Positions 6,290-57,066 of a DNA stretch of 64,000 bases are shown here, one piece after another. This DNA comes from Malania oleifera. Its lineage: Eukaryota > Streptophyta > Magnoliopsida > Santalales > Ximeniaceae. The position numbers and the translations under genes are program-made. Every line of letters starts with the position of its first letter. The stretch's first letter is position 1. A model generated the notes under the pieces. It did not search any database. It had not been told where the DNA came from and saw only the letters and a program-made list of their open reading frames with translations. The stretch lies in assembly GCF_029873635.1 (NCBI RefSeq), contig NC_080428.1:67389601-67453600 (forward strand), in the 5' to 3' direction.

Positions 6290-7038
6290 CACCACTCTTT
6301 GGCATCAACGTCTTGGTCACCCTTCCATTTCATGTGTGCCAAAAACCTTAAATACTTCTTCTCCTCATTTGCGTTGTGATGTTTGTGCTAGAGCAAAGTA
6401 CACTCGTTTACCTTTTTTCCTTGAATACACAGAAGAACACATTTTGTTTGAATCGAATTTATTGTGATATATAGGGTGGTTATCCTACCACTTCACTCTC
6501 TGGTGCACATTACTTTTTAACAATTGTGGATGACTACTCACGTACTACATGGGTCTATCTTATGTGCATGAAATCTGATACTTTCACTTGTCTTAAAAAT
6601 TTTTGCGCCATAGTCAAAAATCATTTCAATTGCACTGTTAAGCAAGTACGCACTGATAATGGTCGAGAATTTCTATCCACGCCGCTTCAAACCTTTTTCC
6701 ATGATCAAAGCATTTTTCACGAGCGCACATGTGTGGATACACCACAGCAAAATGGTGTTGCTAAGCGTAAACATCGCCATCTTCTTAATGTGGCTCAGTG
6801 TTTATGTTTTCAAGACAATCTTCCCGTTTCCTTTTGGGGTGAATGCATTCTGACAGCCACCTATTTAATTAATCGTACTCTTTCACCTAGCCCCAATCAT
6901 AAGTCCCCTTATGAACTTCTTTTTCAGAAACCCCCTTTATATACACACTTGCGAGTGTTTGGGTGCTTGTGCTATGCCCAAACTACTCACCAACATCACG
7001 ATAAATTTTTCCTCGTGCTCTTTGATGTGTTTTCTTAA
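6290..7038 (+). pseudogene. copia GAG-pre-integrase and integrase
   Basis: TLWHQRLGHPS near 6,293 is the pre-integrase zinc-binding motif. The integrase core follows with VDDYSRTTWVYLM (6,526 on), QVRTDNGREF, DTPQQNGVAKRKHRHLLN and LPVSFWGE. The last catalytic region reads NGVAKRKHR where NGVAERKHR is usual, so the Glu of the D,D,E triad is replaced by Lys. In-frame stops lie near 6,280 and 6,466, and the reading ends at 7,038. Confidence 0.85.
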
Positions 7039-7539: not shown

Positions 7540-8520
7540 CCCGAACCCACCTCATATTCTCAAGCTGTGCTACACTCCCATTGGCGTGATGCCATGAATT
7601 CTGAAATCCAAGCCTTAGAAACCAATAATACATAGGTTCTTCAACCCCTTCCCCCTAGGAAAAAACCAATTAGTTGTAAATGGGTGTTCAAAACAAAACT
7701 CCAGGCCAATGGATCCATAGAGCGACACAAAGCTCGCTTGGTGGCCAAGGGCTACACTCAGGTAGAAGGTTTGGATTATCATGATACTTTTGCTCCTATT
7801 GCTAAACTCGTTACCGTCAAGTGTGTTCTTACAGTGGCGGCCGCTCAGAATTGGCATCTCCTTCAATTGGACGTCAACAATGCTTTTCTCCATGGTGACC
7901 TCGATGAGGAGGTTTATATGATCCCCCTCCCCCCTATGTTATTGCAAACAGGGGGAGACTCGTGTTTGTCGTCTTCAGAAATCCCTTTATGGCCTCAAGC
8001 AAGCTTCTCGCAATTGGTTCTCTAAATTATCTTTTGTTTTACTTGCTGCGGGTTTCGCCCAATTTCAGGTTGATCACTCTCTTTTCACGCGCTCTCAGGG
8101 TCAGTCTTTTCTTCTTATACTTGTTTATGTTGATGACATTTTCATGGCATGCAATGATCTCTCCGCTATTAGCACTTTCAAAGTCATGCTCGCTCAGAAA
8201 TTCAAACTCAAGGATCTTGGCAAATTGAAATATTTCCTTGGCCTCGAAGTTGCTCGCTCTCCCACTAGCATTTTTCTCAATCAACGCAAATATGCTCTTG
8301 ACATCCTCACTGATAGCGGTCATCTAGGTGCTCGTCCTACCCACTTTCCCATGGAACAAAATCTGAAGCTCAATAATACTGATGGTGCTCTCCTCTCCGA
8401 TCCAAGCTCGTTTCGGCGCCTCGTTGGATGTTTGATCTATCTCACCATCACTCATCCCGACCTTGTCTTTCCAGTCAACATTCTTAGTCAATTTACGCAC
8501 CAGCCCAAACAACCGCATTA
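7540..8520 (+). pseudogene. copia reverse transcriptase
   Basis: [53 protein letters not shown] and [18 protein letters not shown] mark the RT palm and fingers. After a frameshift near 7,925, the catalytic YVDD is at 8,126-8,137. The thumb follows (FKLKDLGKLKYFLGLEVA). A stop at 7,633 and the frameshifts break the frame. A C-rich low-complexity run (about 7,300-7,340) lies upstream. Confidence 0.85.
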
Positions 8521-9006
8521 TGATGTTGCTATAAGTATTCTAATTCGGATTGGGCTAGTTGTCCCTTCACTCGCCGCTCCACCACTGGTTTTTTCATTCA
8601 GTTGGGCACTAGTCCCATTTCCTGGTGCACTAAGAAACAAACTACCGTCTCTCGCTCCTCCGCCGAAGCTGAGTACTGGGCACTTGCTTCTACTACCTGT
8701 GAACTTACATGGCTCAAAACTCTTTTACATAATCTTGGCGTACCGCATTCTCAGCCTGTGCTCTTATATTGTGACAACCAAGCGGCTCATCACATTGCCC
8801 AAAATCTTGTTTTCCACGAACGTACCAAACATATAGAAATTGATTGTCATATTGTTCGTGAAAAGTTACAGGCTGAACTCTTCTTCACTAAGCATATTCC
8901 TACCTATAGTCAGCTTGCCGATATCTTCACTAAAGCTTTGGGTCGTGAACATTTTCAAAACTTATCATGCAAGTTAGGCATTACGGATCTCCATGCTCCA
9001 ACTTGA
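8521..9006 (+). pseudogene. copia RNase H
   Basis: SPISWCTKKQTTVSRSSAEAEY, LTWLKTLLHNLGV, LLYCDNQAAHHIAQN, HERTKHIEIDCHIVREK and LADIFTKALGREHF are the standard copia RNase H signatures, including the AEAEY Glu and the CDNQ Asp. The ORF ends with TGA just before the polypurine tract. The N-terminal part with the first Asp is frameshifted. Confidence 0.85.
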
Positions 9007-11721: not shown

Positions 11722-12280
11722 CATACTGAGCATACCTCCCCAACGGCATCAGTAGGAATCTCACACACACACAGTCTCTATACTGAGCATACCTCTCCAA
11801 CGGCATCAGTAGGAACTTCACACACACACACACAATCTCCATACTGAGCATACCTCCCCAACAGCATCAGTAGGAACTTCGCACGCACACACACACAATC
11901 TCCATATTGAGCATACCTCCCCAACGGCATCAGTAGGAACTTCGCACACACACACAGTCTCCATACTGAGCATACCTCCCTAACGGCATCAGTAGGAACT
12001 TCATACACACAATCTCCCTACTGAACATACCTCCCCAATGATATCAGTAGGAACTTCATACACATAATCTCCCTACTAAGCATACCTCCCTAACGGCATC
12101 AGTAGAAACTTCACACACACACAATCTCCATACTAAGCATACCTCCCCAACGGCATCAATAGGAACTTTATACACACAATCTCCTTACTGAGCATACCTC
12201 CCCAACGACATCAGTAGGAACTTCACACACACACACAATCTCCATACTGAGCATACCTCCCCAACGGCATCAGTAGAAAA
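11722..12280. repeat. Minisatellite, about 9.5 units of 55-63 bp
   Basis: Each unit has the core ACTGAGCATACCTCCCCAAC, then GGCATCAGTAGGAACTTC and a variable CA dinucleotide run ending CAATCTCC. Unit length varies mostly through the CA run. The array is inside the large solo LTR. Confidence 0.9.
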
Positions 12281-14265: not shown

Positions 14266-14409
14266 GTAGAGGACGCAGTTTGCACTTTGGAGGGGTTCGA
14301 TTACGCAAAAATATTTTGGATATTTGAACAATATTTTATGCCTTTCTTGTCTCTTTGGGGACAAAGGGGCAAAATAATTATTTTTTCAAAAAAAATTGCT
14401 TACTACTTG

Positions 14410-15005
14410 TGTTGGGTCCAACCTACATTAAATAAGGAAGTCACTAGGATAAATTAAAGGAGGCGGCAATGTGGAGGAGAGATGACAATAGTGAGAAAAA
14501 AAAAATGTGTGGCAGTGTGTGAGGCAGCAATAATGTGTTGTGCAATCTTCATCAATTCAACAATCAGAAGGTCTTTTATGATCCGATTTTTCTAAAATTT
14601 GGAAAGCACGTTTGGGATTTGTCGACCTTTGATCTGGATGGTGGATATCTGTTTCAGAACTTTGGAGGGCCTGATTTTGCAGTACTGACAGTAACTACGT
14701 TCGGGTGACTTCTTTCCGCTCATTCTTATTTTATCGCAATTCTTTTGGGAATCCTTTTACTCTAAGTTTGTAAGCATTTTTGGTGATTGTACTGTTGTAA
14801 TTTTTGTAAGCTACGTTCGGAGTCTCATAGGCCCCGTGGTTTTTACCCTCCACGTTGGATGAGTTTTTCATGTTAAAAAATCGTGGTGTTCCTATTGTGG
14901 TGTGTGATTTATTATTATTATTGGTTGGTTATTTTTTCTTATCACGAATTTTATTTTTGATAAAGATTTATCCGTTATACAAGTTGTCTTGTTGCTTTCC
15001 CAACA
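14410..15005 (+). repeat. 5' LTR of copia element 2
   Basis: It starts TGTTGGG and ends CCCAACA. It is 596 bp against 648 bp in element 1, mainly because element 1 has an extra A-rich stretch near its 5' end. Confidence 0.8.
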
Positions 15006-15007
15006 AA

Positions 15008-15019
15008 TGGTATCAAAGC
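15008..15019 (+). other. Primer binding site of copia element 2
   Basis: TGGTATCAAAGC follows the LTR after 2 bp and differs by one base from the usual TGGTATCAGAGC. Confidence 0.75.
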
Positions 15020-15029
15020 TTGATTCATA

Positions 15030-15775
15030 TAAAATATAGAAGGCAACGTAGATTTTATATGCAAGCTCACAACTTCAATTATTCATTTTGGAAACCAAAT
15101 ATAGAGGACATTCTTTATTGTAAGGATTTATTTGATCCGATTGAATTGGGTAGCGATAAGCCGAAAAAACAAACTGAAGCTGATACTGGAAGAAAATGCA
15201 TGGGAAAACAGTTGGTAAAATCAGACAGTGGGTAGATAATAGTGTTTTTCATCATGTGGCTCAAGAGACAGATGCCCAAATACTTTGGAAGAAGTTGGAA
15301 AGTCTTTATGAGAAAAAGATTGCTCACAATAAAGCTTTTGTAATTAAAAAAACTTGTAAATTTGAAGCTTAGAGAAGGAAAATATGTTACTGAGTATTTG
15401 AGCGATCTCTAAAATTTGGTAAACCAGTTAACCAACATGAAGATAATTTTAGATGATGAACTACAAGTTTTGTTGCTATTGAGTTCTTTGCAAGATAATT
15501 GGGAGACTCTTGTAGTATCTCTTAACAACTTAACCCTAAATGGTGTGTTGATCCTATCGTTTGTTAAAGATAGCTTGTTTAATGAAGAGGCCAAAAGGAA
15601 AGAAATAGGTATAGATAATATCCATATACTTGTTACAGAAGATAGGGAGAGTAGTCGATACAAAAATAAAAGGCGTAGAAGTAAAAGTAGAAGCAAGTCT
15701 AGGTCAAGATTTAAAAATATTGAGTGTCATTATTGTGGTAAAATTGGTCATATCAAGAAGTAATGTTACAAGTGG
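15030..15775 (+). pseudogene. copia gag remnant (element 2)
   Basis: It carries YMQAHNFNYSFWKPNIEDIL, DLFDPIELG, VNQLTNMKIILDDELQVLLL and SFVKDSLFNEEAKRKE, then a basic stretch and CHYCGKIGHIKK followed by TAA where the sister has an intact codon before the last Cys. A frameshift near 15,183 and stops near 15,370 and 15,762 break it. Confidence 0.85.
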
Positions 15776-15862
15776 AAGAGAGAAAATAAAAGTAACAATG
15801 ACAAGCAAGAAAAAAAGGATCAGGATAATAATGATCGTGTTATCACTACTGTTGGAAATGAT

Positions 15863-16186
15863 TTGGTTCTTGCTTATGATGATAATGTAATTAGTGTTGC
15901 CTATAATGAAATTAGTTGGGTGGTTGACAGTGGTGCCTCTTTTCACGTGACATCAAGGAAAGATTTTTTCAATTCATATACTTCCAGTGACATTGGAGTT
16001 TTGAAAATGGGAAACGATGTTGTGGTACCGATAGTTGGCAGTAGAACTGTTTGCTTGAAGACCAACAATGGAATAGAATTGGTACTCAATAATGTCTGGC
16101 ATGCTCCTAGTGTTCGTATGCATTTGATCTTTATTGGAAGACTTGATGATGATGGATATTTCAACTTATTTGGTAATGGACAATAG
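15863..16186 (+). pseudogene. copia protease remnant (element 2)
   Basis: ISWVVDSGASFHVTSRKDFF contains an intact retropepsin DSGA active site, unlike the NSGA in element 1. KMGNDVVVPIVGSRTVCLK and WHAPSVRMHLIFIGRLDDDG follow. A TAG at 16,184 stands where Trp is expected, as in element 1. Similarity ends about 50 bp later. Confidence 0.85.
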
Positions 16187-16233
16187 AGACTTAACAGAAG
16201 AAATTTAATTGTGACCCAAGATAACAAATTTTG

Positions 16234-17340
16234 TATTTTTTTTTTTTTTTAAAAATAAAAATGATTTTTTTTCACAACTAGATGTAACACTAGCTTTTTC
16301 TTCATGAAACATTGAATATGAAAGGGAGCTTGGCTTCCAAAATGGAATATAATAAAAATAAAATAAATTTTGTATTAAAATACAATAATTTATAAGATAG
16401 TATTATTTGTAGGTAAATATAGTCATGCAAAATTTAGTATTATTTCATAAATATGAAATAATATAAAAAAATAAATATTGACGTCATAAAAGCTTGAGAA
16501 TAGTTATTCATAACCTATTTTATACTAATTAAAATAACACCTAACTTTTTTATGGTCATTTGCCTCGCAATAGTTCTATTGTCTTTAAAAAAATTTCTTA
16601 CACAATAACTGTTTGGTTTGTTTTTAACTCATTAATGATAAGTTATAATGAAGCAAAACATCATCCAACAAAAAATAAGAATTTTTTTTCTTTTTTGACT
16701 ATTCATATTAATCTATTGAAAAACATGAATGGCTCATCATATAAGATTTAGAACTCATCAGTAAGATATCACAATAACTCCTATACTCATAAGTGAGAGG
16801 TTAAATTTCAATAATGTAAACTGCACAACTTTTTATTGATCCCGAACATTAATATAACATAGTATTATTGATGGGTTCTAAACCTTTCACAAAGCAATCA
16901 CCGTATATAGATAATAACATAAATATAACAACGTGTTTTAGTCTTGATTAACTGAGAAATTGCTTTAGGCGTGAATTGTTGTCAATGTCTTTACTATCGT
17001 GCCCAGGTCAAAACTGCCCGTCACTCGCACGATCATTGTCACCAAACCCCAATTCTCAGTGGGCAAGTCTTCCATGTGGATCATTTCAAGAGAACAGTCC
17101 AATAAGAATGAATATTTTAATTGCAAACTGACCATTGGGAATCTAAACGGTGAATCGCGGAGATGAGTACCTGCAGGAATCCCTGATTCGAGCATCGATT
17201 TGATTTCAGCATTCACCAAGGATAAATCTGGAAATCTCAACATTCCAGTTCCAATGACAGCCTTAAACCTCCAGGTGCAGTCAGCAGTCTTTTTGCCCTT
17301 TTCAGGTTGATCAGATGTTCTCTGTTCATGGATTCTGTTT
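16234..17340. other. Intergenic stretch, no gene recognised
   Basis: AT-rich and non-repetitive to about 16,960. A 92-codon minus-strand ORF (16,965-17,243) begins MLRFPDLSLVNAEIKSMLE and stays open upstream; I cannot assign it to a family, and it may be a gene fragment or chance. The inverted repeat begins at about 17,350. Confidence 0.4.
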
Positions 17341-17517
17341 AGTGGGTAGTTATCAATCAGTTATTAGCACAACCCAGCAGCTCGGCATTATTTCTGGGAA
17401 TCAGTGGAGTGATAAGGAGATCCAAAACTATTGGAGAAATAAGGATGGTTACTCCCAAAAATCTGCGTATATTAGTGGAGAGACATTGGAGGATGAAGGA
17501 GTTTCAATGGCAATAGA

Positions 17518-17990
17518 TGTTGGGATTTTTACCGATTGAGTAATTAATGGAGAAAAAAAAAACAAAGCGCGCGCGCACACAATTATTTACGCCAGAGTTA
17601 CGTGGTTCGGCCAAATTCCGGCCTACGTCCACGGGAGCGAGAGATTACTATTTACTGGGAAAAATACAGAGGAGGAGGAAGATGCAATCACTCAACTCTT
17701 ACAGCTCTCTCTCTACACAATCTCTCTACTTCACGCAGCTTACACTGCAACACACTCTCTCACACTCTGCACTCTTATGCACGCTGCAACACACCACACC
17801 ACCCTACACAACTCCACACACACGTGTATATATATATACACAAGGGGGAACAAAAATTCAACGGGCGGTGGCTTAATGTCAACACGTCCGGCAAAGTAGG
17901 TGGAGCAGCAAAGGGTGACGGAGGAGCAGTCGGCGCCGAAGATGTTGAAGGAGCAGCAGCCGTCTGCTTTGACTGGGTATGGATCCATCA
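17518..17990 (-). repeat. 3' LTR of the minus-strand copia element
   Basis: 473 bp, TG...CA ends, nearly identical to the right LTR except for the CG/CA repeat near 17,567-17,580 and short indels near 17,677-17,695. On its right is TTCTCCTCCTCC (17,992-18,003), which is the polypurine tract on the minus strand. Confidence 0.9.
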
Positions 17991-18035
17991 ATTCTCCTCC
18001 TCCATACCCATAAGAGGAGAATAATATGTTAATCT

Positions 18036-18386
18036 TCAATTGACGTCCATCCCAGCTATATCCCTACATAGCTGGAGCTTCTCATAAGTTACCCCCTTTG
18101 TTAACATGTCTGCCGGATTCTCTTTAGTATGAATTTTGACTAACTTCAACAGTTGTTGTTCCATCACTTCGTGTATCCAATGATAGCGAATGTCGATATG
18201 TTTTGTTCGGGAATGGTACATTGAATTCTTGCTCAAGTCCAGTGCACTCTGACTATCACAATGTACCTTGTATTCTTCCTGTTTGACTCCTAACTCTTGA
18301 AGAAACCGCTTTAACCACAACATCTCCTTCCCAGCTTCCGCTGCGGCAATATATTATGCTTCTGTTGTGAATAAGGCAACACACTT
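18036..18386 (-). pseudogene. copia RNase H
   Basis: After two stops (near 18,354 and 18,384) the frame reads EMLWLKRFLQELGVKQEEYK, VHCDSQSALDLSKNSMYHSR, TKHIDIRYHWIHEV and TKENPADMLTKGVTYEKL, the usual copia RNase H C-terminus, ending with a stop close to the polypurine tract. Confidence 0.9.
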
Positions 18387-19460
18387 TTACAATTTTGACT
18401 GCCATGATACAGCTCCCCCTGTAAAGGTGAATAAAAAACCTAATGTGGACTTTCTTCCATCAAGATCACCAGCCATGTCTGCATTAGTGTAACCCTCCAA
18501 GATTGGTTCAACTTCCCCAAAACATAAGCATAATTCCGATGTACCTTTCAAGTACTTGAGAATCCATTTCACAGCTTCCCAATGGTCTTTCCCTAGATTG
18601 GAAAGAAACCTGCTCACAACACCTACAGCGTGGGCAATGTCTGGTCTCGTACACACCATTGCGTACATCAAGCTTCCAACTGCTGATGAGTATGGAACTA
18701 TTGACATTTCTTCCTTTGATGAGTGAGACAACTTCTTGTTTAACTTGAAGTGATTAGCCAGTGGAGTACTTACTAGCTTGGCACTTTCCATGTTGAACTT
18801 TTTGATTACCCGTTCAATATACTTCTCTTGTGATGACCATAATTTTCTGGCTTTCCTATCGCGACTGATCCTGATGCCTAGGATCTGCTGAGTTAGGCCT
18901 AAGTCCTTCATTTCAAAAGATTTAGACAACTCCATCTTTAACTTGTTGATCTTGCTTGCATCCTAACCAATGATCAACATGTCATCAACATAGAGTAGTA
19001 GTATGACAAGATTACCATCAGGAAATATCTGAACATATGCACACTGATCTGTTGCAGTCCTCTTTTATCCGTGACTCACCATGAAAGAGTCAAATTTTCT
19101 ATACCATTGTCTCGGTGCTTGCTTAAGACCGTAGAGACTTTTCTTCAACCTGCAGACTTGTTCTTTCCCTAGAACTTCAAATCCTTCTGGTTGCTCCATG
19201 TAGATGTCTTCTTCCAAGTCTCCATGTAGGAAGGCTATCTTCACATCCATTTGTTCAAGCTCTAGATTTAACTTGGCTACTAATCCAAGTATAACTCGAA
19301 TTATTGTCATTTTCACTACTGGCAAAAATATCTCGTCAAAGTCAATGCCTTTCTTCAATTCGAAACCTTTGACGACTAATTTGGCTTTATGCGTCACAAT
19401 TTATCCACTACCATCTTTCTTAAGCTTGAACACCCATTTGTTCCTTAGTGCTCTCTTCCC
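18387..19460 (-). pseudogene. copia reverse transcriptase
   Basis: HKAKLVVKGFELKKGIDFDE, EQMDVKIAFLHGDLEEDIYM and [20 protein letters not shown] mark the fingers and palm, and the catalytic YVDD is at 18,981-18,992. KSFEMKDLGLTQQILGIRIS, SAVGSLMYAMVCTRPDIAHA and GDLDGRKSTLGFLFTF lead into RNase H. Stops near 19,064, 18,966 and 19,402 break the reading. Confidence 0.9.
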
Positions 19461-19946
19461 TTTGGGAAGTCTTACCAGCTCATACGTTTGATTCTTATGT
19501 AAAGAATTCACCTCTGCTTTCATAGCTTCCATCCATTTGGTTTTGTCAGTATGAGACTGGACTTCTTGAAAACTTTCTGGCTCCCCCTCATCAGTGAGTA
19601 AAAGATATTCTGATTCTGGATATCTTCTCGACCGAATCAGAACACGACCTCTTTCAGATCTTCTGGGCTCAACTTCTTCTAGAGGAGAAGATACTTCATC
19701 ATCTGACCGATGTGATGATTCTGTAATTTCTAGTGAAGGGGGTTGTTGCTCCCCCTACTCAACACTGTCTACATCTGTTTCCAAAGGATCATCCTATAAT
19801 TCTCCATGGTTTGTGGGAGAATATGATAGTGTAGGATCTGTTACAATGACTGGAGCACTGGAACTAGGCTGGTTAGACTTTGTTTGTGGTTCAAAGTCCT
19901 CAAACACCTGGTTTTCATGGAAAACCACATCTCTCGATCTGATGAC

Positions 19947-20831
19947 CTACTTCCTCTCTGGATCCCATAATCTGTAACCAAATTCATTATCTCCATAGCC
20001 AATAAAGATACATGGAATAGACTTCACGTCGAGCTTTTGCCTCTGCTTATTAGATATATATGCAAAAGCTTTGTACCCAAACACTCTTAGATGAGTGTAA
20101 GAAACTTTTCTTCTGGTCCATTTTTTCTCTGGAATTCCAAAATTAAGTGGTGCTGACGGTGATCTGTTGATAAGGTAACATGTGGCACGAATAGCTTTCC
20201 CCCAAAATGGCTTAGGTAATTTAGCCATACTAAGCATACTTCTAACTCTCTCCATAATGGTCCGATTCATTCTTTCAGCTACACCATTATGTTGTGGGGT
20301 ACGTGGGACCATCTTTTCATGCCTAATACCACATTCAGTACAGTATGCTCTGAACTCGTTGGAAGTATACTCGCCTCCATTGTCTGTCCGGAGGCACTTC
20401 AATTTCTTCCCTGTTTGTCTTTCTACCATAGCATGAAATTCCTTGAAATATTTAAATACCTGGTCCTTTGTTTTCAGAAAGTATACCCACACCTTCCTTG
20501 AAGTGTCGTCAATAAAGGTAACAAAATACCTGTTGCCGCCGATTGATTCTACTTCAATGGGTCCGCATACGTCAGAATGTACCAAACTCAATGGCTTTGA
20601 CTTTCTCTTCATAGAGGAACTAAATGAAACTCTATACTGTTTCCCAAATAAGCAATGATCACATGGGTTTAAGGCAATACCTTTTGTGATTTTGATAAAT
20701 GCCTTCTTCGCCAGTGTAAGGAGCCCTTTTTCACCCACGTGTCCGAGTCTCTTGTGCCATAGGTTTGGTGATGCTTCATCTTCCACTGCATTGATGGCAT
20801 CAGTACAAATCTTCACTTGCGTCTTGTACAA
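19947..20831 (-). pseudogene. copia GAG-pre-integrase and integrase (294 aa open frame)
   Basis: NLWHKRLGHVGEKGLLTLAK and PCDHCLFGKQYRVSF form the HHCC zinc-binding domain (residues about 20-70). The catalytic triad is complete: Asp in LVHSDVCGP, Asp in CLRTDNGGEY and Glu in HNGVAERMNRT. LPKPFWGKAIRATCYLINRS and RVFGYKAFAYI follow. The stretch is open for 294 codons with no missing catalytic residue. Confidence 0.9.
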
Positions 20832-21014
20832 TGTGTAGCAAATGCGTCCTCATGCTATTGTCAAATTACCTTTTGATAATTTCCAAGCACCTTTCCCAAA
20901 GTAGCTTTCATAGCCCTATTTATCAAGGGCTGCACCAGAAATAAGGTTGAGTCGAAGGTCTGGGACATGTCGAACATCCTTTAGTGTTATGGTGCAACCA
21001 ATATTGGTCACAAT

Positions 21015-21233
21015 CTACACGTCTCCGATTCCCACGATCTGAGAAGAACTAGTGTTCCCCATCTTTACTGTACCAAAATCTCCAGATTTATACATCGTGA
21101 AGAATTCTTTGTGGGGAGTGGCATGGTAGGAGGCTGCTGTGTCTACCACACATTCAGTGTCCTGGTTCCCAATATGACAACATGCATCTTCATCAATTGA
21201 AAAAACTGATATATCTTGGGTTAAGGTGACCAA
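21015..21233 (-). pseudogene. copia protease
   Basis: TECVVDTAASYHATPHKEFF holds the retropepsin active site as DTAA, a form seen in Tork-type copia elements. TVKMGNTSSSQIVGIGDV follows. A stop (TAG) comes directly after and separates it from the pre-integrase region. Confidence 0.85.
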
Positions 21234-21293
21234 GTTCTCACCTTCCTCTTTCTTTTGTTGCTGGCGGCTTTGACCATGATCCTACCGAAATTT

Positions 21294-22079
21294 TCAACAA
21301 TCTTTCTTCATGTGGCCTTCAATGCCACAATAGTAATAAGAGATTTTTCCCCTCTTCCAATTTTTACCATCACTGAATCTACCCCGATCTTGGGATCTTC
21401 CTCTAGATTTGCTTCTACCTCTGCCTCTACCTCGACTTATGGTACTGGTACTTTCTTGAGGTCGGCCTTTGGTTTCAGTAACAAAGGCTTGTGACTGATC
21501 TGCACCTGTTTCTTTTCTCCTAGCCTCTTCGTTGAATAAGGCATCTTTTACCATCGCCATGGTAAGTTTGCCGTCAGGAGCTGAATTGCTGAGAGTGATA
21601 ACCAATGTCTCCCAGCTGTCCGGCAAGGAGCTAAGAAGCAGCAATGCTTCTGCTTCATCACCAAGATCCATCTTTACTGATAAAAGCTGATTTACTAGGT
21701 TTTGGAACTCACTAGTATGTTCAGCTATAAAGGTCCCGTTTTTTAACTTCAGATTAACAAGCTGTCTCATTAACATGGCTTTGTTGCGAGCAGTCTTGGT
21801 CTGGTACATGTTTTCCAGCTTCTCCCAAAGACTATAAGCATCAGTCTCTTTTGCGACGTGATGATATACCTTATGGTCAATCCATTGTCTGATTTGACCA
21901 ATGGTCTTCCTATTCATTCTTCTCCAATCATCATCTTTGACGGAATCTGGTTTCATACCTTTATAATCCAAAGGATCCGCCAGATCCTTACAATTAAGGA
22001 GATCCTCCATCCGAGACCTCCACAGAGTGTAATTGGAGGCTGTAAGCTTGATCATATTACCCGAGTCTGACTCCTCCAT
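21294..22079 (-). pseudogene. copia gag (261 aa)
   Basis: Starts MEESDSGNMIKLTASNYTLW, the copia gag N-terminus. RMEDLLNCKDLADPL, LWEKLENMYQTKTARNKAML, HTSEFQNLVNQLLS and MVKDALFNEEARRKETG follow. A basic GRGRGRSKSRGRSQDRGR segment leads to the zinc knuckle, which reads YYYCGIEGHMKKDC: the first Cys of CX2CX4HX4C is Tyr, so one zinc ligand is lost. The frame then meets a stop. It is the best-preserved gag in the window and the reference for elements 1 and 2. Confidence 0.9.
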
Positions 22080-22249
22080 TGATTTTTAAGCACTAACTTG
22101 CTCGTACAGAAAAATTGGGATAGAATCTCGAGAAACCGAATATACAGTTGCGTCCGGAACGGTCGAAAACCCTAGAAATGGCTTAAGTTGTTTGAAAAAC
22201 GGACCTAGAATGGCCTTGAAAAGCCTGGTCAAAATTCGGTTAAACTAGT

Positions 22250-22500
22250 CAACTATGCTGACGTGGGTAGGGGCCCACTGCGGGTCCCAGGTGCTAACGT
22301 GGCACTGCCCATGTTGCTGACTAGGCCCATGTGTCGCTAACTGGTCGCGGGTCCCGGCTGACGTGGCCGCTGACTGTGCTACTGACGCAGCGCTGAAGTG
22401 GCTCGCTGACTGTGCAGCTGACGTGGTCTGGCGTTGGCTGACGCGGCGCTGACTCAGCGCTTACGTGGCCGCTGACGTCAGCATCTTCTTCCTGCGAATG
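22250..22500 (-). repeat. GC-rich leader with short degenerate repeats
   Basis: Between the primer binding site and the gag ATG the sequence is unusually GC-rich and carries many degenerate copies of a CTGACGTGG/GCTGACGCGG word. A 107-codon minus ORF (22,321-22,644) here has no family resemblance and is probably chance in an untranslated leader. Confidence 0.55.
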
Positions 22501-22764
22501 TGCGTCGGACTTTCGCTGGGGCGCGAACGCGGGTGACGATACTTCCTGATCAATAGCCGATGCGTATGGGAGCGTGCAAACGTCCCCTGGACGTTGGCAG
22601 CGCGTGCAGCGTCTTCTGAATTCGTTTGGAGCTCTAGTTGACACCGTTTGCTTCGTCTCGACGAGTGGAGTTTGATGGTAGCCTCAAAATTAAATTTTGA
22701 GCTACTGGACAGAGGCTCAAAATCTGAGAGTTTTCTCCGATCTGAAATTCTACTCCAATAATAC

Positions 22765-22777
22765 GCTCTGATACCAC
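22765..22777 (-). other. Primer binding site (minus-strand copia)
   Basis: Reads GTGGTATCAGAGC on the minus strand, an exact match to the usual plant copia primer binding site. Confidence 0.9.
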
Positions 22778-22779
22778 TT

Positions 22780-23263
22780 TGTTGGGATTTTTACCGATCG
22801 AGTAATTAATGGAGAAAAAAAAACAAAGGGCACACACACACAAATATTGACGCCAGAGTTACGTGGTTCGGCCAAATTCCGGCCTACATCCACGGGAGCG
22901 AGAGATTACTATTTATTGGGAAAAATACAGAGGAGGAGGAGGAGGATACAATCACTCAACTCTCACTCAACTCTTACAGCTCTCTCTCTACACAATCTCT
23001 CTACTTCACGCAGCTTACACTGCAACACACTCTCTCACACTCTGCACTCTTATGCACGCTGCAACACACCACACCACCCTACACAACTCCACACACACGT
23101 ATATATACATACACAAGGGGGAACAAAAATTCAACGGGTGGTGGCTAAATGTCAACACGTCCGGTAGAGTAGGTGGAGCAGCAAAGGGTGACGGAGGAGT
23201 AGCCGGCGCCGAAGATGTTGAAGGAGCAGCAGCCGTCTGCTTTGACTGGGTATGGATCCATCA
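22780..23263 (-). repeat. 5' LTR of the minus-strand copia element
   Basis: 484 bp, TG...CA ends. The adjacent plus-strand sequence GCTCTGATACCAC (22,765-22,777) is the reverse complement of the tRNA-iMet primer binding site, which fixes the element's orientation. Confidence 0.9.
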
Positions 23264-24071
23264 ATAGATTCAACTCAAGATGGTAGTTCAACAAGATAAG
23301 GAAACTCCAACAAAAATGGTAAATGAGCATATGTCGGATTCAAATCAAATCAGATCACCTTTGGTGGCGTTTGAAATCTGTCAAGATGTAGAGCATATCG
23401 TCGAGAATATTGTTCACAGATTTCATGCAATCTATTACTATGTTTTTATGTTTAAAAAAAAAGTCCTTTGTATTAGTTTAACAATGGGTAATAGACCTCT
23501 ATTTAAACATAAAAACATAGTAACAGATTGCATGAAATCCGTGGATAATATTCTCGATGATATGCTCTACATCTTGACTGATTTCAAACACCACCAAAGG
23601 TGATCTGATTTAATTTGAATCCAAGATATGCTCATTTACCATTTTTGTTGGAGTTTCCTTATCTTGTTGAACTACCATCTTGGGTTTTCATTTTGTTGCC
23701 ATTTGAAACTCCTTCATCCTCCAACGTCTGTCCACTAATATAGGCACATTTGTTGGAGTAACCATCCTTATTTCTCCAATAGTTTTGGATCTCCTTATCA
23801 CTCCACTAATTCCCACAAATTTTGCTAAAATGTTGGGTTGTGCTAATAGAATCTCTATCAGTATTCAAGTGGTAGCCAATAAATGTAAGTGTAGGCTCTG
23901 AGGGTTGAGAAATCCTGGCTATAGAACTTTTATTGGCAAATATTTTCTCAACTCAGTTTCTTGATTCCCTTGAGAGGAGTAGGGGTGGGACAATGCTAGG
24001 ATTGTTTATTGATTAAAAATTTCAATGTTCTAAAAGTGTACAAGTCTCATATATCATCTTACCCAAGTATT

Positions 24072-24440
24072 TATAAAGGAAATTGTATAATTTTCTAGCA
24101 AGTTGTCTACGGTTTCTATATACCCTTCAGCGGTTGGTTCGACGGTTTCAAACAGAATGTATTCAAGGAGAAACCGTCGAAAGTTTGTTGAAATCATCGA
24201 TGGTTACGCCTGTTGCTGAATTACGGAGAATCCTAGCGGTTGAAGATTTGCTAGTATTTGATAGCCTATGGTGATCTGGGATTTTTCAGTTGTATTGCTT
24301 GAATATTTGTTTGTATTTGATAGTCTAGGATCTTCTTGATTTGGTATTTAAAATTTTGTGAATTTGTAACAACTATACCTTGTATAATTCCTATATATAC
24401 GACATCTCTACATCAATGAAAGTGTTCTGCATTTTCTATA
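24072..24440 (+). repeat. 5' LTR, TATA ends
   Basis: 369 bp; aligns with 28,589-28,938 throughout, with scattered substitutions and a few indels in the first third. Confidence 0.85.
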
Positions 24441-24452
24441 TGATATCAGAGC
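24441..24452 (+). other. Primer binding site
   Basis: TGATATCAGAGC immediately after the LTR, one mismatch from TGGTATCAGAGC. Confidence 0.8.
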
Positions 24453-24486
24453 TCTTTCTCTAACGAGCTTTTTTTTTTTTTTCCTA

Positions 24487-25150
24487 ATGGTCGTTTCCTC
24501 TGAGCCCATTATTGTCAACATTCTTGAGCTTCCTAACAGTGGCAACTTTCCTCTTATTGCCATCAATGCAAGCTCCCAGCTTCCTTTGAAGTTGACCCCT
24601 TCCAACTTGCCTTCTTAGCGCGCCCAACCAACGTCATAGCTTATTGACTATAACCTCTAGGGCTCTCTTGACGGTACTACCGTATGTTCATCACAACCCC
24701 TTTCTAACAGCACCTTCTCTACCGATTCATCTTCTACAGGTGTCTCCAATCCGGCTTTCTGGCGTTGGCTCCGACAAGATAAGTTGATTCTTCATACCAT
24801 CCTTGCATCTGTCTTTGAACTGGTTATGTCGCTCCTTGCTGATTCAACCACTGCTCATGATGCTTGGTCCAAGTTGCAACGATTGTATATTAATCGTTCA
24901 CGCACTCGTGTTATGCAACCTAAGGAGGAGTTGACTCAGCGAGAGTCCCACTCGGTCTTGAAGTATCTCCATACCATCAAGGTTTTAGTTGATGAAGTTG
25001 GTGTGATTGACTCTCCCATCTCAACAGATGACATAACTTTGTATGTCCTCAGCGGTCTTGGTCTTGAATTCCGTGAAATTGCAGCCCCTATTCAGGCACA
25101 TAAGACTTCTCTTACGTTTGAGAAGCTTCATGACATGCTGGTTGGCCACT
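24487..25150 (+). pseudogene. copia gag
   Basis: It reads from ATGGTCGTTTCC as VNILELPNSGNFPL and later FWRWLRQDKLILHTILASVF, TTAHDAWSKLQRLYINRSRT and EVGVIDSPISTDDITLYVLS, the UBN2-type copia gag. Two stops near 24,618-24,650 and one at 25,150 break it. The zinc knuckle comes in the next segment. Confidence 0.85.
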
Positions 25151-25189
25151 AAAGTTACTTGCAACGTGTTGATGCTTCCAATTTCGTCC

Positions 25190-25720
25190 TAGTTGCCACT
25201 GCGAACACCACTCAGCGTCGTACTACCGCTTCCACATTCAACCACAACCAACGTTTCAGCCCTACTTCCTATGGTTAGCGTCACCCCAACTTTGGTCGCA
25301 CTAATCACAGGGAGCAGTCTGGTAAGCCCCGGATTATTTGTCAGTTGTGTGACAAAGTGGGCCACTCAGCCAAGACTTGTTACTCAGCTTCAATAGTGAA
25401 GTCTGTAAATTGTGCCTCTACCAATGCGTCCATTGACAAAAGTGGCTTGTGGATTCCGCTACTTCTCACAACATCACCTCTGATCTTGCCAATTTCTCTG
25501 TTCACTCGGAGTATGATGGCACAGATGAGGTTGTCATTGGCGATGGCTCAGGTTTGCGAATCACACGTGTTGGTTCTATGTCTCTTCCCTCTTCCTCAAA
25601 GATTTTTAAATTGTCTAATACTCTTTGTGTTCCTAACATTCACAAGAACATAATCTCCGTTCATAATTTCACTCGTAGCAATAATGTCTATCTTTAGTTT
25701 CACCCATTTTATTTTTTTGT
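25190..25720 (+). pseudogene. copia zinc knuckle and protease
   Basis: CQLCDKVGHSAKTC (about 25,340-25,380) is an intact CCHC knuckle. WIPLLLTT and, in another frame, DSATSHNITSDL (from about 25,452) show the protease site changed from DSGA to DSAT. VGSMSLPSSSKIFKLSNTLC and HKNIISVHNF follow. Confidence 0.8.
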
Positions 25721-26395
25721 GAAGGATCGGAGCACGGGGGCGACTCTTCTTCGCGGTAAATGTCAGGATGGTGTCTATCCAATGTCAATGACTTCTTCCA
25801 CCACCAAGTCTTTTGTTTTAGCACTTGTTGGTGAACAAACAACATTAGATACTTGGCATAGACGGCTTAAGCATCCATCAAATAAAGTAGTTGATTTTGT
25901 TATTTGTACTTTTTCCCTTCCAGTTTTAGTGTCTCGTGTCTCTTCATCATCTATCTGTAATGCTTGTCAATGCAATAAAAGTCACAAGTTGCCTTTCTCT
26001 TCCACTTCTCTTGTTAACACTCATCCACTTGAATACATTCATACTGATGTTTGGGGGCCTACGACTTCCACTTCACTTGATGGGTTTTGGTTTTATATCT
26101 TGTTTATTGATCACTTTACTAAATATTGTTGGTTGTTTCCCATCCGACGAAAAAGTGATGTTTTCTCCAATTTCTATCAGTTGAAATGGCTACTTGGAAA
26201 ACAATTTGGTTTTCACATCAAATGCTTGTACTCCGATAATGGGGGTGAATATTAAGCTTTTCGTCATTTTCTCTCCTCTAATTCCATTAGCTGGCTTACC
26301 ATTCCTCCTCATATACCTAAGCAAAATGGTACAAGTGAACGTCGGCATCGACACATTATCGAAACCAGTCTCACTCTATTGAGTTAGGTGAGTTT
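25719..26395 (+). pseudogene. copia integrase
   Basis: TLDTWHRRLKHPSNKVVDFV is the pre-integrase motif. EYIHTDVWGPTTSTSLDGFW gives the first catalytic Asp, IKCLYSDNGGEY the second. A TAA stop at 26,253 follows, and the Glu region appears only as a shifted NGTSERRHRH near 26,327. Confidence 0.85.
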
Positions 26396-27059
26396 TCCCC
26401 CATCTTATTGGTCCTCTACATTTCAGACAACAGTTATTTGGTAAATCGTATGCCCACTCCTATTTTGAAAAACAAATGTCCATTAAAATGTTTGTTTGGT
26501 CGTCATCCCATTTACAAAAAGTTGCACATCTATGGTTGTCAATGTTACCCATGGCTCAAACCTTATACTACCGGTAAACTTCAACCAAAATCTACGCCTC
26601 GTCTCTTTCTTAGTTACTCGAGTTCTCAAATTGCCTATAGGTGTATGGACCTTGTTACCTCTCGCATTTACGTTTCTAGGCATGTGGTTTTTGATGAATG
26701 TATTTTTCCCTTTTCTTCCTATGCCCATGTCGTTGTGCCTTCTCTGTCAGTTTCAAGTGCTAACACAAAGGATCTTGCTATATCAGAAGTGTCTTCCATT
26801 GGACGGATACCCTCCTCTCCTACCACTGTGACAGGCAGCGCTCCTGCAGCTCCGACTTCCCCTTCTCAGTCTTTATCACCATCCCTTGCACATTCTCCGC
26901 CAGAGGTAATCCCTTTATATCCACCACACTTACATCTCTGGCCCAGTCTACCCATACTCATGCTATGACTACCCAATCTATGAATAATATTCATAGACAC
27001 AAACATCTTTACCTTGCCACTAGACACACTCTTCCTCAACCTATTGAGCCCACATGTGT

Positions 27060-27830
27060 GTCCAGGCCTTGAAAGATCCCAAGTGGCGGCATGCTATGTC
27101 CAAAGAGTTCACTGCGTTAGTTAAACATGACACATGGGAGCTGGTTCAATTGTGCACTACAATCAAACTCGTTGGCTGCAAATGGGTTTTCCGTATTAAA
27201 TGAAATTTTGATGGTAGTATTTCTTGCTATAAAGCACAGTTAATGACCAAAGGTTTTCATCAACGTCATGTTTCTTATTATAATGAGACATTCAGCCCTA
27301 TTGTGAAGCCGGTGACAATTTGAGTTGTCCTCTCCATTGCTGTTCATAAAAATTGGCACTTTGACAGTTGGATATTAATGATGCATTTCTACATGGCCGC
27401 CATTAGGAGGATGTAGTCATGGTTCAACTTCCGGGTTTTGTTGATCCTAATCTGCATTCTCCTGTTTGCAAGTTAAAGAAGTCTTTGTATGGCTTGAAAC
27501 AAACACCTCATGCTTGGTATCAAGAACTCAATGCTTGTCTTCTTCAACTCGATTTTCAGCAATCTAAATCTGATTCCTCTTTTTTTTATCTACACTTGTG
27601 ATGATGTTACTCTCTATTTTTTGGTATATGTGGATAATCTCTTACTCACTGGAAGTAATTATGTTGCTATCTCAAAGGTTGTTCAACAGCTCAGTCATTG
27701 GTTTTCTTTGAAGGATCTTGGTCCCTTACATTATTTTCTTGGTGTCGAGGTTATTTCAGTTGCTCGTGTGCTGTTCCTCTCCCAACAAAAGTATATTCGA
27801 GATCTTCTTTCTTGCACCAAGATGGATGGT
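27060..27830 (+). pseudogene. copia reverse transcriptase with YVDN
   Basis: GCKWVFRIK, YNETFSPIVKPVTI and [20 protein letters not shown] identify RT. The catalytic box reads YVDN at 27,627-27,638, so the second Asp of YVDD is Asn. LKDLGPLHYFLGVEVISVAR follows. Stops near 27,200, 27,320 and 27,407 also break it, so this copy cannot reverse transcribe. Confidence 0.9.
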
Positions 27831-28506
27831 GCCCAGGCAGTGATGACTCCACTGGCCACAAAGGATCTTCTTCAGCTTCAATATGGCTCTTCTCCTGCTG
27901 ATCCAACTGAGTACCGGCGAGTTATAGGAGCTCTCCAGTATCTCTCTCTTACTCGGAATGACATTGCCTTTCTGGTCAATAAGTTAGCTCAATTCATGCA
28001 TAAACCATCTCAGCTTCATTGGATCGCTGCCAAACGCATTCTGCGATACTTGAAGGGCACTCTTCACCATGGCATCCTTCTCAAGCACACTGGGAATCTC
28101 ACTCTTCAAGGGTTCTCTAAAGTTGAATGGGCCAATGGTAGGGATACTAGATCCTTCACCTCTGCCTATCTTATTTTTCTGGGTGATTGTCCCATTTCCT
28201 AGAGCACGTGCAAGCAGCGTGCTATGGCTCGTTCCTCCACTAAGGCGGAATATAGGGCTCTTTCTTCAGCCACCTCCGAGCTTGTTTGGATTCACTCATT
28301 GTTTCATGAACTCAGTATTCCGATTACTAAGCCCCCACATTTGTTTTTGTGATAATATTGGTGCTACTCAGTTGAGTCTTAATCCTGTTATGCATTCACG
28401 GATGAAGCATATTGCTATTGATCTTCATTTTGTTTGTAATCTGGTCACCAAAGGTTTGTTGCAACTCTCTCATTTAGCACCCACAATCAATTTGCAAACC
28501 TCTTGA
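27830..28506 (+). pseudogene. copia RT thumb and RNase H
   Basis: EYRRVIGALQYLSLTRNDIA and AAKRILRYLKGTLHHGI precede RNase H. In a shifted frame MARSSTKAEYRALSSATSEL replaces the usual SSAEAEY with STKAEY, keeping the Glu. MKHIAIDLHFVCNLV is the C-terminal motif. Confidence 0.85.
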
Positions 28507-28588
28507 CTAAGACTCTATCTCGTCAGAAATTTCACTCTCTCTGCTCCCAGATCGGCTTATCTGATGGCATGCCTATCTTGAGGGGGCG

Positions 28589-28938
28589 TATAAAGGAAAT
28601 TGTATAGTTTTCCAGCAAATTGTCGACGGTATCTATATACCCTTTGACGGTTGCTTTGATGATTTTAGACAAAATGATTTCCAAGATAAAATCGTCAACG
28701 GTTACGCCTGTTGCTGAATTGTCGAGAATCCTAACAGTTGAAGATTTGCTAATATCCGATAGTTTGCGGTGATCTGGGATGCTTCAGTTGTATTACTTGA
28801 ATATTTGTTTGTATTTGATAGTCTAGGATCTTCTTGATTTGGTATTTAAATACTTTTGAATTTGTAACAACTATACCTTGTACAAGTCCTATATATAGGA
28901 CATCTCTATATCAATGAAAGTGTCTTACATTTTCTATA
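28589..28938 (+). repeat. 3' LTR, TATA ends
   Basis: 350 bp partner of 24,072-24,440, preceded by the polypurine tract at 28,578-28,588 and followed by the GTATT TSD. Confidence 0.85.
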
Positions 28939-28943
28939 GTATT

Positions 28944-36426: not shown

Positions 36427-37340
36427 AAGGTGGTAACTTTTATTTTTGGTTCGATAGGTGGCTTATATCAGGCCCGCTAGCTGTGTGCATTGAGGATATT
36501 TCAAACAAAAAGTTGTGTATTAAGGATTGCTGGCTAAATAACAACTGGAACACTGATTTATTACTGGAATTGGTTGGGACTGACAGAACAATGGAAATCT
36601 TGCTTAATGTGCCGGCTGGTAAAAGTGGTTATGATATATTCATATGGAAGCCTGCTTCTTATGGTAATTTCTTTACAAAAACGGCATGGGAGGCAGTGAG
36701 GAGCAAAAGTGATAATTTTGAGTGGAATGAATGGTTTTGGCATTCTTTTTTTCCTAGAAGAATCTCAATATGTTTATGGAAAGCCTGATTCAGATGATTT
36801 ATAGTAAATGATAGAATTCATGTCAAAAGAATATCGATGGCTTCGACATGTGATTGTTGTGTGTAGAGAAGTCAGGAAAACATTGATCGCATTTTTTTCT
36901 TTAGGCGAGGTGGCTTCAGAGGTTTGGCATCAGGCTACTGTAGTGTTGGGGATTCCTTTCCAACAGTTCCTTTCCTAGAACATAATTCCAAACTAGTTCC
37001 ACAATGCTCGAAAATCGTCTATTAAAGGTACGTATTTTAATCGGACTGATTTTGTGTTTGATTATGTGGTGCCTCTGGAATCAAAGATGCAAAGAGAGAA
37101 TGGAAGGAGTTTATCAAAGTGCATATCAGATGTGGAGAAGTGTTCAATACTGGGTTAGTTCTTTAGGTGAGAGTTCTAATTCTTTTCGAAAATTGAAGAT
37201 GTCGGACATTACGATTTTGAAGGAGTTTCAAATTCAGCATCAAGGAGTTTGTGCCAGGCCTGAAAAAAGTATTTCGTGGGTTAAACCCCCAACAAGGTGG
37301 ATAAAATTTAATTGTGATGGGAGTTGTAGGGGTAATCCAG
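36420..37340 (+). pseudogene. LINE zf-RVT and start of RNase H
   Basis: FYFWFDRWLISGPLA and TAWEAVRSKSDNFEW, WFWHSFFPRRISICLWKA are the zf-RVT region. Stops lie near 36,786 and 36,865. WIKFNCDGSCRGNPG (up to 37,340) is the first RNase H strand with its catalytic Asp. The repeat inserted at 37,341 cuts the domain here. Confidence 0.85.
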
Positions 37341-39306
37341 GTTGAAACCTAAGGTGTAGTCCCAAGAGGGGGGGTGAATTTTGTTATTTAAAATTTCTTT
37401 GATTCTTTTTTAGAACTCTTGTCCCTTTTCACAATCTCTTAAGGATTACTTGTATTTATGTTAATGAGGCAATCCACACAAATTCCCATTTTCTAATTAA
37501 TCCACAATCAACTAATACAATCAATTAACTTACTATTCAAACACAATAACCACCCAACAATAAATCAATTTGAATCTTTAGAGTCCCTGTATATGAATAT
37601 ACAACTCCTATGTTGTCTTTTGAATTTGAATATTACAACGACATTCAAACACTTTTTCAATATCAGAACTTAATTAAACCTTTAGCTAATAAGTTTTTGG
37701 ATGTTAATCAATCAACGTACTTCCTTTCGGTTTCCGCAAAAGATCAATTAACCAACATACTCCCTTTCAGTTTCTACAAGCCCAAGAACAAATTAGTTTT
37801 TGGGTTTACTTAATTTCTAATATGTGTTTGCTTTATAATTAAAAGTATTAAACATTCACGCAGGGTATATCGTTACTGAAATTAAAAGTGAGTAAGGATA
37901 AGAGAGTGACGCCACCACTTTTACGAAGTTCAACTTATACCCAGCTTACGTCCTCGCCTTAGGTTAACCACCCAAGGAATTTATTATATCTTGTTCCTTC
38001 CAGGTGGAACAAAAACCTTACACAATTTACCCTCTTTTCAGGAAGAGAAACCTCTCCAAGCACCGACCTGTGCTTGGTCCAACGATCCAACAAACCTTTG
38101 AATTGTTCAAAGTATAAGAAGATAGAAGTAGATCTACGTACAAAAAATACTCTCAAAATTCAAAGCAGGTTGTACAAATTGAGTTCTAAATTGTACTTCA
38201 AAACACCAAAACTAAATAGAACATGAGAAGCTCTAAATTTTTAGAAGTCACCGTTGGTTCTTTAAAAAGAATTGAGTGCAACTCGGAACCAAGCTTTTGA
38301 TTTTTCAATCCACCAAAAACATAGAGTTTTCCTCCAATAAAATGATGTGAGCAAAGGAACTTAAGGAGAATTTCAGTGTATTGACTATTTGATCTTTTAG
38401 GCTTATCTTGCTTGTCTATTTCTCTCTTTTTCATTGCCCAAATGAGGTATTTATAGATTTTTCCAAAGAACAATTTTCTCATTTAATTAGGTAGCATTAA
38501 ATTATTGAATTAATTTTGAAATTCAAAATTTTTCCAAAGAACAATTTCTTCATTTAATTAAATTATTGAATTAATTTTAAAATTCAAAATTTTTCCAAAG
38601 AGCAATTTTCTCATTTAATTAAATTATTGAATTAATTTTGAAATTCAAAATTTTTCTAAGGAACAATTTCCTCATTTAATTAAATTATTGAATTAATTTT
38701 AAAATTCAAAATTTTTTCAAAGAACAATTTTGAAAACTCAGAAGGTTGGCAATCGCTTGCTAAGACTTGGCAGTCGTCTGACTTGACCACCCAGGCGCCT
38801 GTCAGTGTTTAGGCAGTCGCCTGGAATCCTACCGCCTCCTAAATTATTTCTTTTAAATTGTGGCAGTCGCCTGGCTCTCAGTGTTTTCCTTTTTTGCTTT
38901 AAAAACTTTCTTCTTTTGAGACCTTTTAATCAAAGACATTTTTTAAGGTCTTTCAAAAAAGTGTTTCTTAGTTTGTTTTGATTTATAAGAGTTTCACATG
39001 TATTTAGATAGTATGTAGCTTTGAAATACTTACAACAATCCTTCTAATCATGGTTTTCTTGAAACACTAAGTTCTTCAGCCTCTCGAGATTTACTTTTGA
39101 CTTTAAGAATTGTTTGGCATTTAACCTCTTCATTTGTTCTTTATTGACCTCAATATTCTGAGGAACTTCCATTAGATTGACATTGAACTTCAACTTATCA
39201 ACCGTGAGTGTCTTTTTACCTACATCAAATCACTCAACACAACATGTTAAAGCATCCTTCATTTTGTTATCATCAGAACAAGATTGAAAAGCTCAGTTAG
39301 GCCAAC
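37341..39306 (+). mobile_element. 2-kb repeat inserted in LINE RNase H (family X, copy 1)
   Basis: Begins GTTGAAACCTAAGGTGTAGT, then CCCAAGAGGGGGGGTGAATT, and ends near TTATCATCAGAACAAGATTG and GGCCAAC. It has the same kind of ends as 57,067-59,145 and the inverted piece at 60,815. The ends show a short imperfect inverted repeat starting GTTGA. It has no coding domains and contains a tandem array of an AT-rich unit. The class is uncertain, and I could not define a TSD because the LINE target is diverged there. Confidence 0.6.
38456..38727. repeat. Tandem AT-rich repeat, about 4 units of 60-70 bp
   Basis: Units share TTTTTCCAAAGAACAATTT, CTCATTTAATTAAATTATTG and AATTAATTTTGAAATTCAAA. The array is inside the repeat that splits the LINE. 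Confidence 0.85.
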
Positions 39307-39675
39307 ACGGATACTTCAGGAGGTAGAGGAATTATTCGAGACTGTCATGATATGGTGAAAGCAATTTTTTCAAGTTATTTTGGTAATGGTACGAACAATA
39401 GTGCGGAATTAAAAACAATTCTGGAAGGAATTCGTTTATGCAAACGACTTCATTATTTTAACGTGATTATTGAAAGTGACTCGCGAATTATTGTTGATTG
39501 GTTACGGAAAGGTAGATGTATCTTGTGGTATCTTTGGGATTTTTGGGAGGACCTCGTGGGGGAGTTAGAAGGAGTAAACTTCATGATAATCCATCAATAT
39601 GAGGAAGGCAATAGTGCAGCTGATTTTCTCGCTAGAGAAGGAGAAATGGGAAACAATATCATCTACGAAAAATAA
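39307..39675 (+). pseudogene. LINE RNase H, second part
   Basis: Resumes with the GGRGIIRDCHDMVKAIFSSY frame, then NNSAELKTILEGIRLCKRLH (catalytic Glu), VIIESDSRIIVDWL (catalytic Asp) and HQYEEGNSAADFLAREGEMG. It lines up with WIKFNCDGSCRGNPG before the insertion and with the uninterrupted RNase H of the LINE at 55,777-57,066. The last 107 codons are open. Confidence 0.9.
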
Positions 39676-40059
39676 CATCTTTTATCACGTTTTCTGAAAA
39701 GTATCCTTTGAATGGATAGGTTGGGTCTCACTTTCTTTCATCATTAGTTCAACCTCTCGATTTTTGTTTGGCGGGTTTAGGTTTGTTTAAATTTTATTTT
39801 ATTTTATTTTATTTTATTTTATTATTTAATTATTTTTTATTTTTATTATTTTTATTATTATTTTACCTAGACCTGTTTAGATTTGTTTCTTATTTAACCT
39901 TGTTTGGATTTGTGATCCTGATTTGGTTGGTAGTTGGTATTGTTTTTGGAAGGACTTTAATTTATTTATCTCTAGTCTCCCTTTGCTTATCTTGTAATTA
40001 CGATATTTTTCCGCCAAAAGTGATGGCATATCAATAAAGACTGTGTTTTTTTTTTTTTT
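39676..40059 (+). other. LINE 3' UTR and tail
   Basis: T-rich 3' region with (TTTTA)n near 39,795-39,830. The conserved family tail CCGCCAAAAGTGATGGCAT follows, then AATAAAGACTGTG and a T-run against the TSD. Confidence 0.75.
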
Positions 40060-55776: not shown

Positions 55777-57066
55777 TTTTTTTTTTTTTTGGTAAAAGAG
55801 GGCGGCACCTCCATTTATTTATTAATAAACCCTCACTTTTGGCGGAGGAATACCGTGGTTACAAGTTAAAACCAACCAACCAAATTAGGACAAACAAAAT
55901 TAAACGTAACTAACAAAGGAGATAAAAACATAAAAACAACCAAAAACAAAACGAAATACACCAAACGAAACTCTAGAGATGAACTAACGACGAACGAAAA
56001 CAAGACCCCACCTATTCATCCGAAGGATACCTTTCAGATAACGTCGTATATTACATTGTTTCTCATTTCTCCTTCTTTAGCAAGAAAATCAGTCGCACTA
56101 TTGTCTTTCTTATATTGATGCATCACCATGACATTCACTCCTTCTAACTCTGCCACGAGCTCCTCTTAAAATTCTCAAAGCTACCACAAAGTACATCTAC
56201 CTTTCCGAAACCAATCAACTACAATTCGCGAGTCACTTTCAACAATCACATTAACATAATGCAAACATTTACACAAACGAATTCCTTCCCTGATTGCTTT
56301 TAATTCTGCACTATTATTCGTACAATTGTCAAAATAACTTAAAAAAATCGCTTTTACCATGTCATAGCAATCCCGAATAATTCTTCCACCTCCTGAAGTA
56401 CTCGGATTGCCCCTACAACTCCTATCACAATTAAGTTTTATCCACCCTGCTGGAGGTTTAACCCATGAAATAATTTTTACAGGCCTATCGCAAACTCCTT
56501 TATGCTTAATTTGAAACTCATTCAAAATCTTAATGTTCGACTTCTTCAATTTTTGAAAAGAAATGGTGCTCTCAGTAATAAAACTAACCCAGAATCGAAC
56601 AATTCTCCACATCTGATCTACACTTTGATAAACTCCTTCCATTCTCGCTTTACATTTTCGATTCCAGAGGCACCACGTAATCAAACATGGAATCAGCCCG
56701 ATTAAAATACCTTTAATAGACGATTTTTTTGCATAGTGGAACCAATTTGCCATTTTATTTTTCCAAGGAAGAGATCGTTGGAAAGAAATCCCCAATGCCA
56801 CACTAGCCCAACGCCAAACCTCTGAAGCCACCTCTCCCAAAGAAAGAATATTATCAATATTTTCCTGGCTTCTCTTAACGCAGCAATCACAAGCCGAAGA
56901 CATCAATATTCCTTTGGTATGAATTCTATCATCTATAGTCAAGCATCTAAACCAGGCTCTCCATAAACGCATTGATATTCTTCTGGGCAATAAAGAATGC
57001 CAAAACCAGTCATTCCACAAAAAATTATCACTTCTGCTCCTCACTGCCTCCCAAGCTGTTTTTGAA
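55777..57066 (-). mobile_element. 5'-truncated LINE, minus strand (same family as 31,994)
   Basis: The plus strand begins with a T-run (poly-A tail on the minus strand), then the tail words GGCGGCACCTCC and CCCTCACTTTTGGCGGAGGA. On the minus strand, zf-RVT and RNase H follow. Similarity to the full-length LINE stops at about 57,066, where family X copy 2 begins; no further LINE sequence is found beyond that copy. Confidence 0.9.
56181..57044 (-). pseudogene. LINE zf-RVT and RNase H (287 aa open frame)
   Basis: NFLWNDWFWHSLLPRRISMR, FRCLTIDDRIHTKGI and CDCCVKRSQENIDNIL form zf-RVT. WIKLNCDRSCRGNPSTSGGG is the start of RNase H, with the usual DG changed to DR after the catalytic Asp. NNSAELKAIREGIRLCKCLH and VIVESDSRIVVDWFRKGRC follow before a stop. 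It is the longest uninterrupted LINE frame in the window and shows what the split copy lost. Confidence 0.9.

Follow-up and report, generated by a model that had tools for sequence, protein, structure and literature searches.

A 64-kb window of the Malania oleifera genome (64,000 nt of contig NC_080428.1, positions 67,389,601 to 67,453,600, assembly GCF_029873635.1) contains a large imperfect palindrome, the left arm of which is interrupted by a Copia long terminal repeat (LTR) retrotransposon. The sequence makes it likely that the palindrome is an old, ordinary inverted duplication which was later struck by the Copia insertion. A mechanical repeat search of the region 16800-24600 reported eight inverted pairs, among them an inner pair of 185 nt (23272-23456/23502-23686; 94% complementary, with a spacer of 45 nt) and an outer pair of 146 nt (17362-17507/23703-23848; 90%). 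The left arm consists of an outer part (17362-17517) and an inner part (23269-23456), both on the plus strand, as seen in the repeat search and the arm alignment. The last five bases of the outer part (17513-17517) are the left ATAGA copy of the target-site duplication (TSD) of the retrotransposon. The right arm (23502-23848, minus strand) is uninterrupted, as seen in the same two analyses and in the blastn search, and is separated from the left arm by a 45-nt loop (23457-23501, repeat search). When the two parts of the left arm are joined with a single ATAGA retained, they give 344 nt. When this joined arm is aligned with the reverse-complemented right arm (347 nt), 314 of 347 columns are identical, and three of the other 33 are gaps. 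The alignment scores 526; shuffling the right-arm side base by base 200 times gave at most 30. This clearly indicates that the palindrome is real and beyond chance. An earlier note on this DNA had described the palindrome and had claimed that removal of the element together with one ATAGA joins the halves of the left arm so that they pair with the right arm; the alignment bears out both claims. Both arms are present, but they are shorter than was claimed: the joined left arm measures 344 nt instead of about 360, and the right arm ends at 23848, 28 bases short of about 23876.

Among the 25 longest of the 72 inverted pairs in the window, the palindrome is the only one with arms of more than 100 nt and a spacer of less than 1 kb. 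No other copy of the arm unit was found elsewhere in the window with blastn (E 1e-3). An exact arm 24-mer had no matches in viral_contigs, a collection that is not of plants, so this result says little. Because no TSD abuts the palindrome and the window holds no other copy of it, the palindrome is best called an inverted duplication.

The element in the left arm extends from 17518 to 23263, and its coding strand is the minus strand. Both LTRs start with TGTTGGGATT and finish with GGATCCATCA; these ends are identical and of the TG...CA type. The 5-bp ATAGA flanks the element on either side, with the right copy at 23264-23268 as seen from arm joining and end comparison, and both the limits and the duplication are exact. 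In the orientation of the element, the 5′ LTR is located at 22780-23263 and the 3′ LTR at 17518-17990, both on the minus strand. The stretch TGGTATCAGAGC, which resembles a primer-binding site, lies just inside the right (5′) LTR and adjoins it in minus-strand reading, and a purine-rich stretch adjoins the left LTR. This shows that the element is oriented leftward. Stretches of the TGGTATCAGAGC type are primer sites, and this one would pair with a tRNA. The element contains nine minus-strand stop-bounded pieces of at least 90 codons, eight of which were searched in Pfam. Five of the eight gave matches (to gag, to an integrase that carries an SH3-like domain, and to RVT_2 three times, one of these below the cut-off) and three did not. 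The minus-strand domains are Retrotran_gag_2 at 21297-22085, rve at 19950-20849, and RVT_2 in three pieces within 18390-19754. Their order and families identify the element as Copia. With the Ty1-copia elements (Pseudoviridae) it shares the paired TG...CA LTRs, the short TSD of 5 bp, and the order of gag and integrase upstream of RVT_2, and it shows nothing unusual apart from its broken frames. The domains are split over several stop-bounded pieces and no intact reading frame is found. Judged by these features, 17518-23263 is a decayed Copia copy, and its membership is unaffected by the broken frames. The element had been called complete, which is true of its structure but not of its coding region.

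The two LTRs differ at 18 of 472 aligned sites (Kimura two-parameter distance, K2P, 0.039), and the two arms at 31 of 345 sites (K2P 0.096); the divergence of the arms is higher (Fisher P 0.003). Since the arms are more diverged than the LTRs, the palindrome is probably older than the Copia insertion, assuming one drift rate for both. Insertion into a pre-existing palindrome, as the earlier note had it, is well supported by the contiguous halves, the TSD, and the divergence of the arms. We infer the order of events, duplication and then insertion, from what can be read directly: the arms, the loop, the element, the TSD, and the relative divergence. We propose that a sequence unit some 347 bp long gave rise to an inverted second copy across a 45-nt spacer, within a retrotransposon-rich stretch, and that the two arms would then have diverged by drift. 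The Copia element would have inserted into the left arm later, producing the 5-bp ATAGA duplication, and would itself have decayed afterwards. Several points weigh against this explanation. The Fisher test assumes independent sites and a single rate for LTRs and arms. The mismatched sites of the arm alignment show some clumping (run-length variance, P 0.013; a longest run of 57, P 0.063), which could reflect gene conversion or local constraint; gene conversion between the arms would make the palindrome appear younger, never older. In addition, the best frame contains more stops in most shuffles than it does in the left arm (P 0.0175); the corresponding value for the right arm is P 0.13. Faster drift of the outer half compared with the inner half was considered and rejected (17/156 versus 14/189 sites, Fisher P 0.26).

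According to the earlier note, a transcript across the palindrome would have formed a long hairpin before the insertion. The fold calculation supports this: the joined 736 nt reach -521.3 kcal/mol, and 40 dinucleotide shuffles have a mean of -163.3 and a lowest value of -180.2. The restriction to the time before the insertion does not hold, since the inner 185-bp half is intact today. The still contiguous segment 23272-23686 folds at -286.8 kcal/mol (shuffles: mean -81.4, lowest -90.9, n = 40). As this inner stem still folds, the insertion is calculated to have shortened the possible hairpin rather than abolished it. Exact partners in the right arm exist for 75 of the 324 21-mers of the joined left arm, and for 40 of 165 when the inner arm is taken alone. 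The palindrome is possibly a source of small interfering RNAs (siRNAs) if it is transcribed. Judging from the fold, a transcript across 23272-23686 would form a 185-bp stem, from which Dicer-like enzymes could cut siRNAs.

Several other explanations were weighed. The palindrome might be a foldback transposon or a DNA transposon similar to miniature inverted-repeat transposable elements (MITEs), with terminal inverted repeats some 347 bp long around a short middle, into which Copia later inserted. We consider this unlikely. The palindrome has the paired inverted repeats and the short centre of such transposons, and its arms share outer and inner limits around the 45-nt middle. Its total length of about 736 bp also falls inside the MITE range of about 100-800 bp given in one review (PMC10004981). 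A 6-bp ATCAGT occurs near each outer end, but the second of these two lies 8 bases past the right end, and at least 6 nt are common to 5.6% of 2000 random 20-nt pairs drawn from the window. The longest TSD-like match with both sides at most 3 bases from the arm ends is 4 nt. Unlike MITEs and foldback transposons, the palindrome has no recognised terminal motif, and the window contains no second copy by blastn; its outer ends are not known to match any terminal inverted repeat. Because no TSD abuts the arms, the palindrome is not classed as a MITE, and the identification of a MITE by its ends was rejected.

The earlier note had also suggested that both arms keep a similar open frame and that the repeat may have been made from a gene. 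The corresponding explanation, a gene fragment with an inverted second copy forming a young hairpin or MIRNA-type locus that silences its parent gene, is improbable. It is favored by a passage in the abstract of PMC3237417 and by the best of the six frames of the left arm, which has a single stop in 344 nt and the P value of 0.0175 given above (2000 dinucleotide shuffles). The best frame of the right arm has two stops (P 0.13, same number of shuffles), and stops are present in all frames of both arms, so the suggestion of a similar open frame is only partly borne out. The substitutions are distributed over codon positions 1/2/3 of the best frame as 10/13/8, without enrichment at third positions. 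As far as can be seen from these substitutions and stops, the arms have drifted without coding constraint. Comparison of the arm translations with protein families and structures gave no clear support for a gene: the arm-frame pieces and their read-through versions reached at best E 0.05 to 0.08 in Pfam, all below the cut-off, and one read-through right-arm peptide gave no match up to E 5 in the PDB. A gene origin of the palindrome is weakly supported at best, and it was not accepted as established given the absence of a Pfam match above the cut-off, of a codon-position signal, and of a PDB match for the one peptide. A hairpin locus of this kind is also favored by matches to four microRNA (miRNA) families at the centre of the palindrome, mir-2831, mir-9243, MIR396, and mir-308 (E 0.00012 to 0.0047), obtained in a permissive Rfam search of 17300-24000. 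These matches score 29 to 36.5 bits against gathering scores of 60 to 90, and comparable scores may come from any long hairpin. The permissive search gave six matches in total (E up to 1), all far below the gathering score, and the remaining two are inside the Copia element. A known miRNA precursor was rejected on this basis and on that of the gathering-score Rfam search of the window, which returned no matches.

A further explanation, which we regard as very improbable, is a lineage-specific long-hairpin locus producing siRNAs against a host gene, with its stem cut from 347 to 185 bp by Copia. Independently of this reading, the long stem-loop typical of loci for siRNAs from endogenous inverted repeats (endoIR-siRNAs) is predicted here by the fold calculation. 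By description, the palindrome can be likened to the Arabidopsis loci IR71 and IR2039, with which it shares a long, nearly perfect stem-loop. Loci of this type are described in PMC4687873 as giving DCL4-, DCL2-, and DCL3-dependent siRNAs of 21, 22, and 24 nt without RNA-dependent RNA polymerase. In contrast to them, the palindrome has a left arm split by an insertion and a contiguous stem of only 185 bp; it resembles them in what it could do. Just as improbable is the chance head-to-head placement of two independent insertions, or two fragments, from a single repeat family: oppositely oriented repeat pieces do occur elsewhere in the window (within 36676-39837 and 55892-57064), but the arms share their inner and outer limits, lie just 45 nt apart, and have no additional copy in the window.

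The window is rich in decayed retroelements besides 17518-23263. A second, more diverged Copia element is present on the plus strand at 24072-28938 and begins 223 bases past the palindrome. It is flanked by GTATT (24067-28943 including the flanks), and its LTRs (24072-24440 and 28589-28938; K2P 0.142) start with TATAAAGG and finish with TTTCTATA, unlike TG...CA. Non-canonical LTR ends of this sort are a known kind. Two direct-repeat copies, each roughly 2 kb long and 87.7% identical to each other, occupy 1-1999 and 14300-16245; the first starts at the window edge. Between the two copies are Copia-type integrase and reverse transcriptase pieces at 6526-7038 and 8144-8836 (two of four pieces searched matched) and a tandem array at 11722-12276 with a period of 55 and 9.6 copies. 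Just outside the left arm, the minus strand carries an open frame of 131 codons (16968-17360), for which Pfam gave nothing up to E 10 and the PDB a single match with E 0.74. Viral or known-family origin of this frame was rejected, as none of 15 candidate stretches in viral_contigs was confirmed and Pfam gave none. Pieces similar to long interspersed nuclear elements form inverted pairs, 36676-39837 versus 55892-57064, that are 16-20 kb apart, with zf-RVT and RNase H at 56181-57044. Of ten pieces searched elsewhere in the window, including the four between the direct-repeat copies, five matched retroelement families, one a MYB-CC motif, and four nothing. The frame 44732-45415 contains the MYB-CC LHEQLE motif (E 1.9e-10, above the cut-off) and may belong to a host gene for a transcription factor. 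Together with the element types, this motif points to a plant host.

The palindrome, taken as an old inverted duplication with a later Copia insertion, appears ordinary; the analysis gives no sign of the repeat doing anything, and the locus is now most likely without selected function. Nested Copia elements are an everyday occurrence in plants. Imperfect inverted repeats are numerous as well, Arabidopsis having about 134,000 and rice about 410,000 according to the figures cited in a review (PMC10004981). The finding has little significance as it stands. It would gain importance only with a transcribed hairpin whose arm matches a live gene; the Copia element would then provide a natural before-and-after test of stem length. 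If the palindrome were an siRNA hairpin cut back by Copia, alleles with the empty site would silence differently from filled ones.
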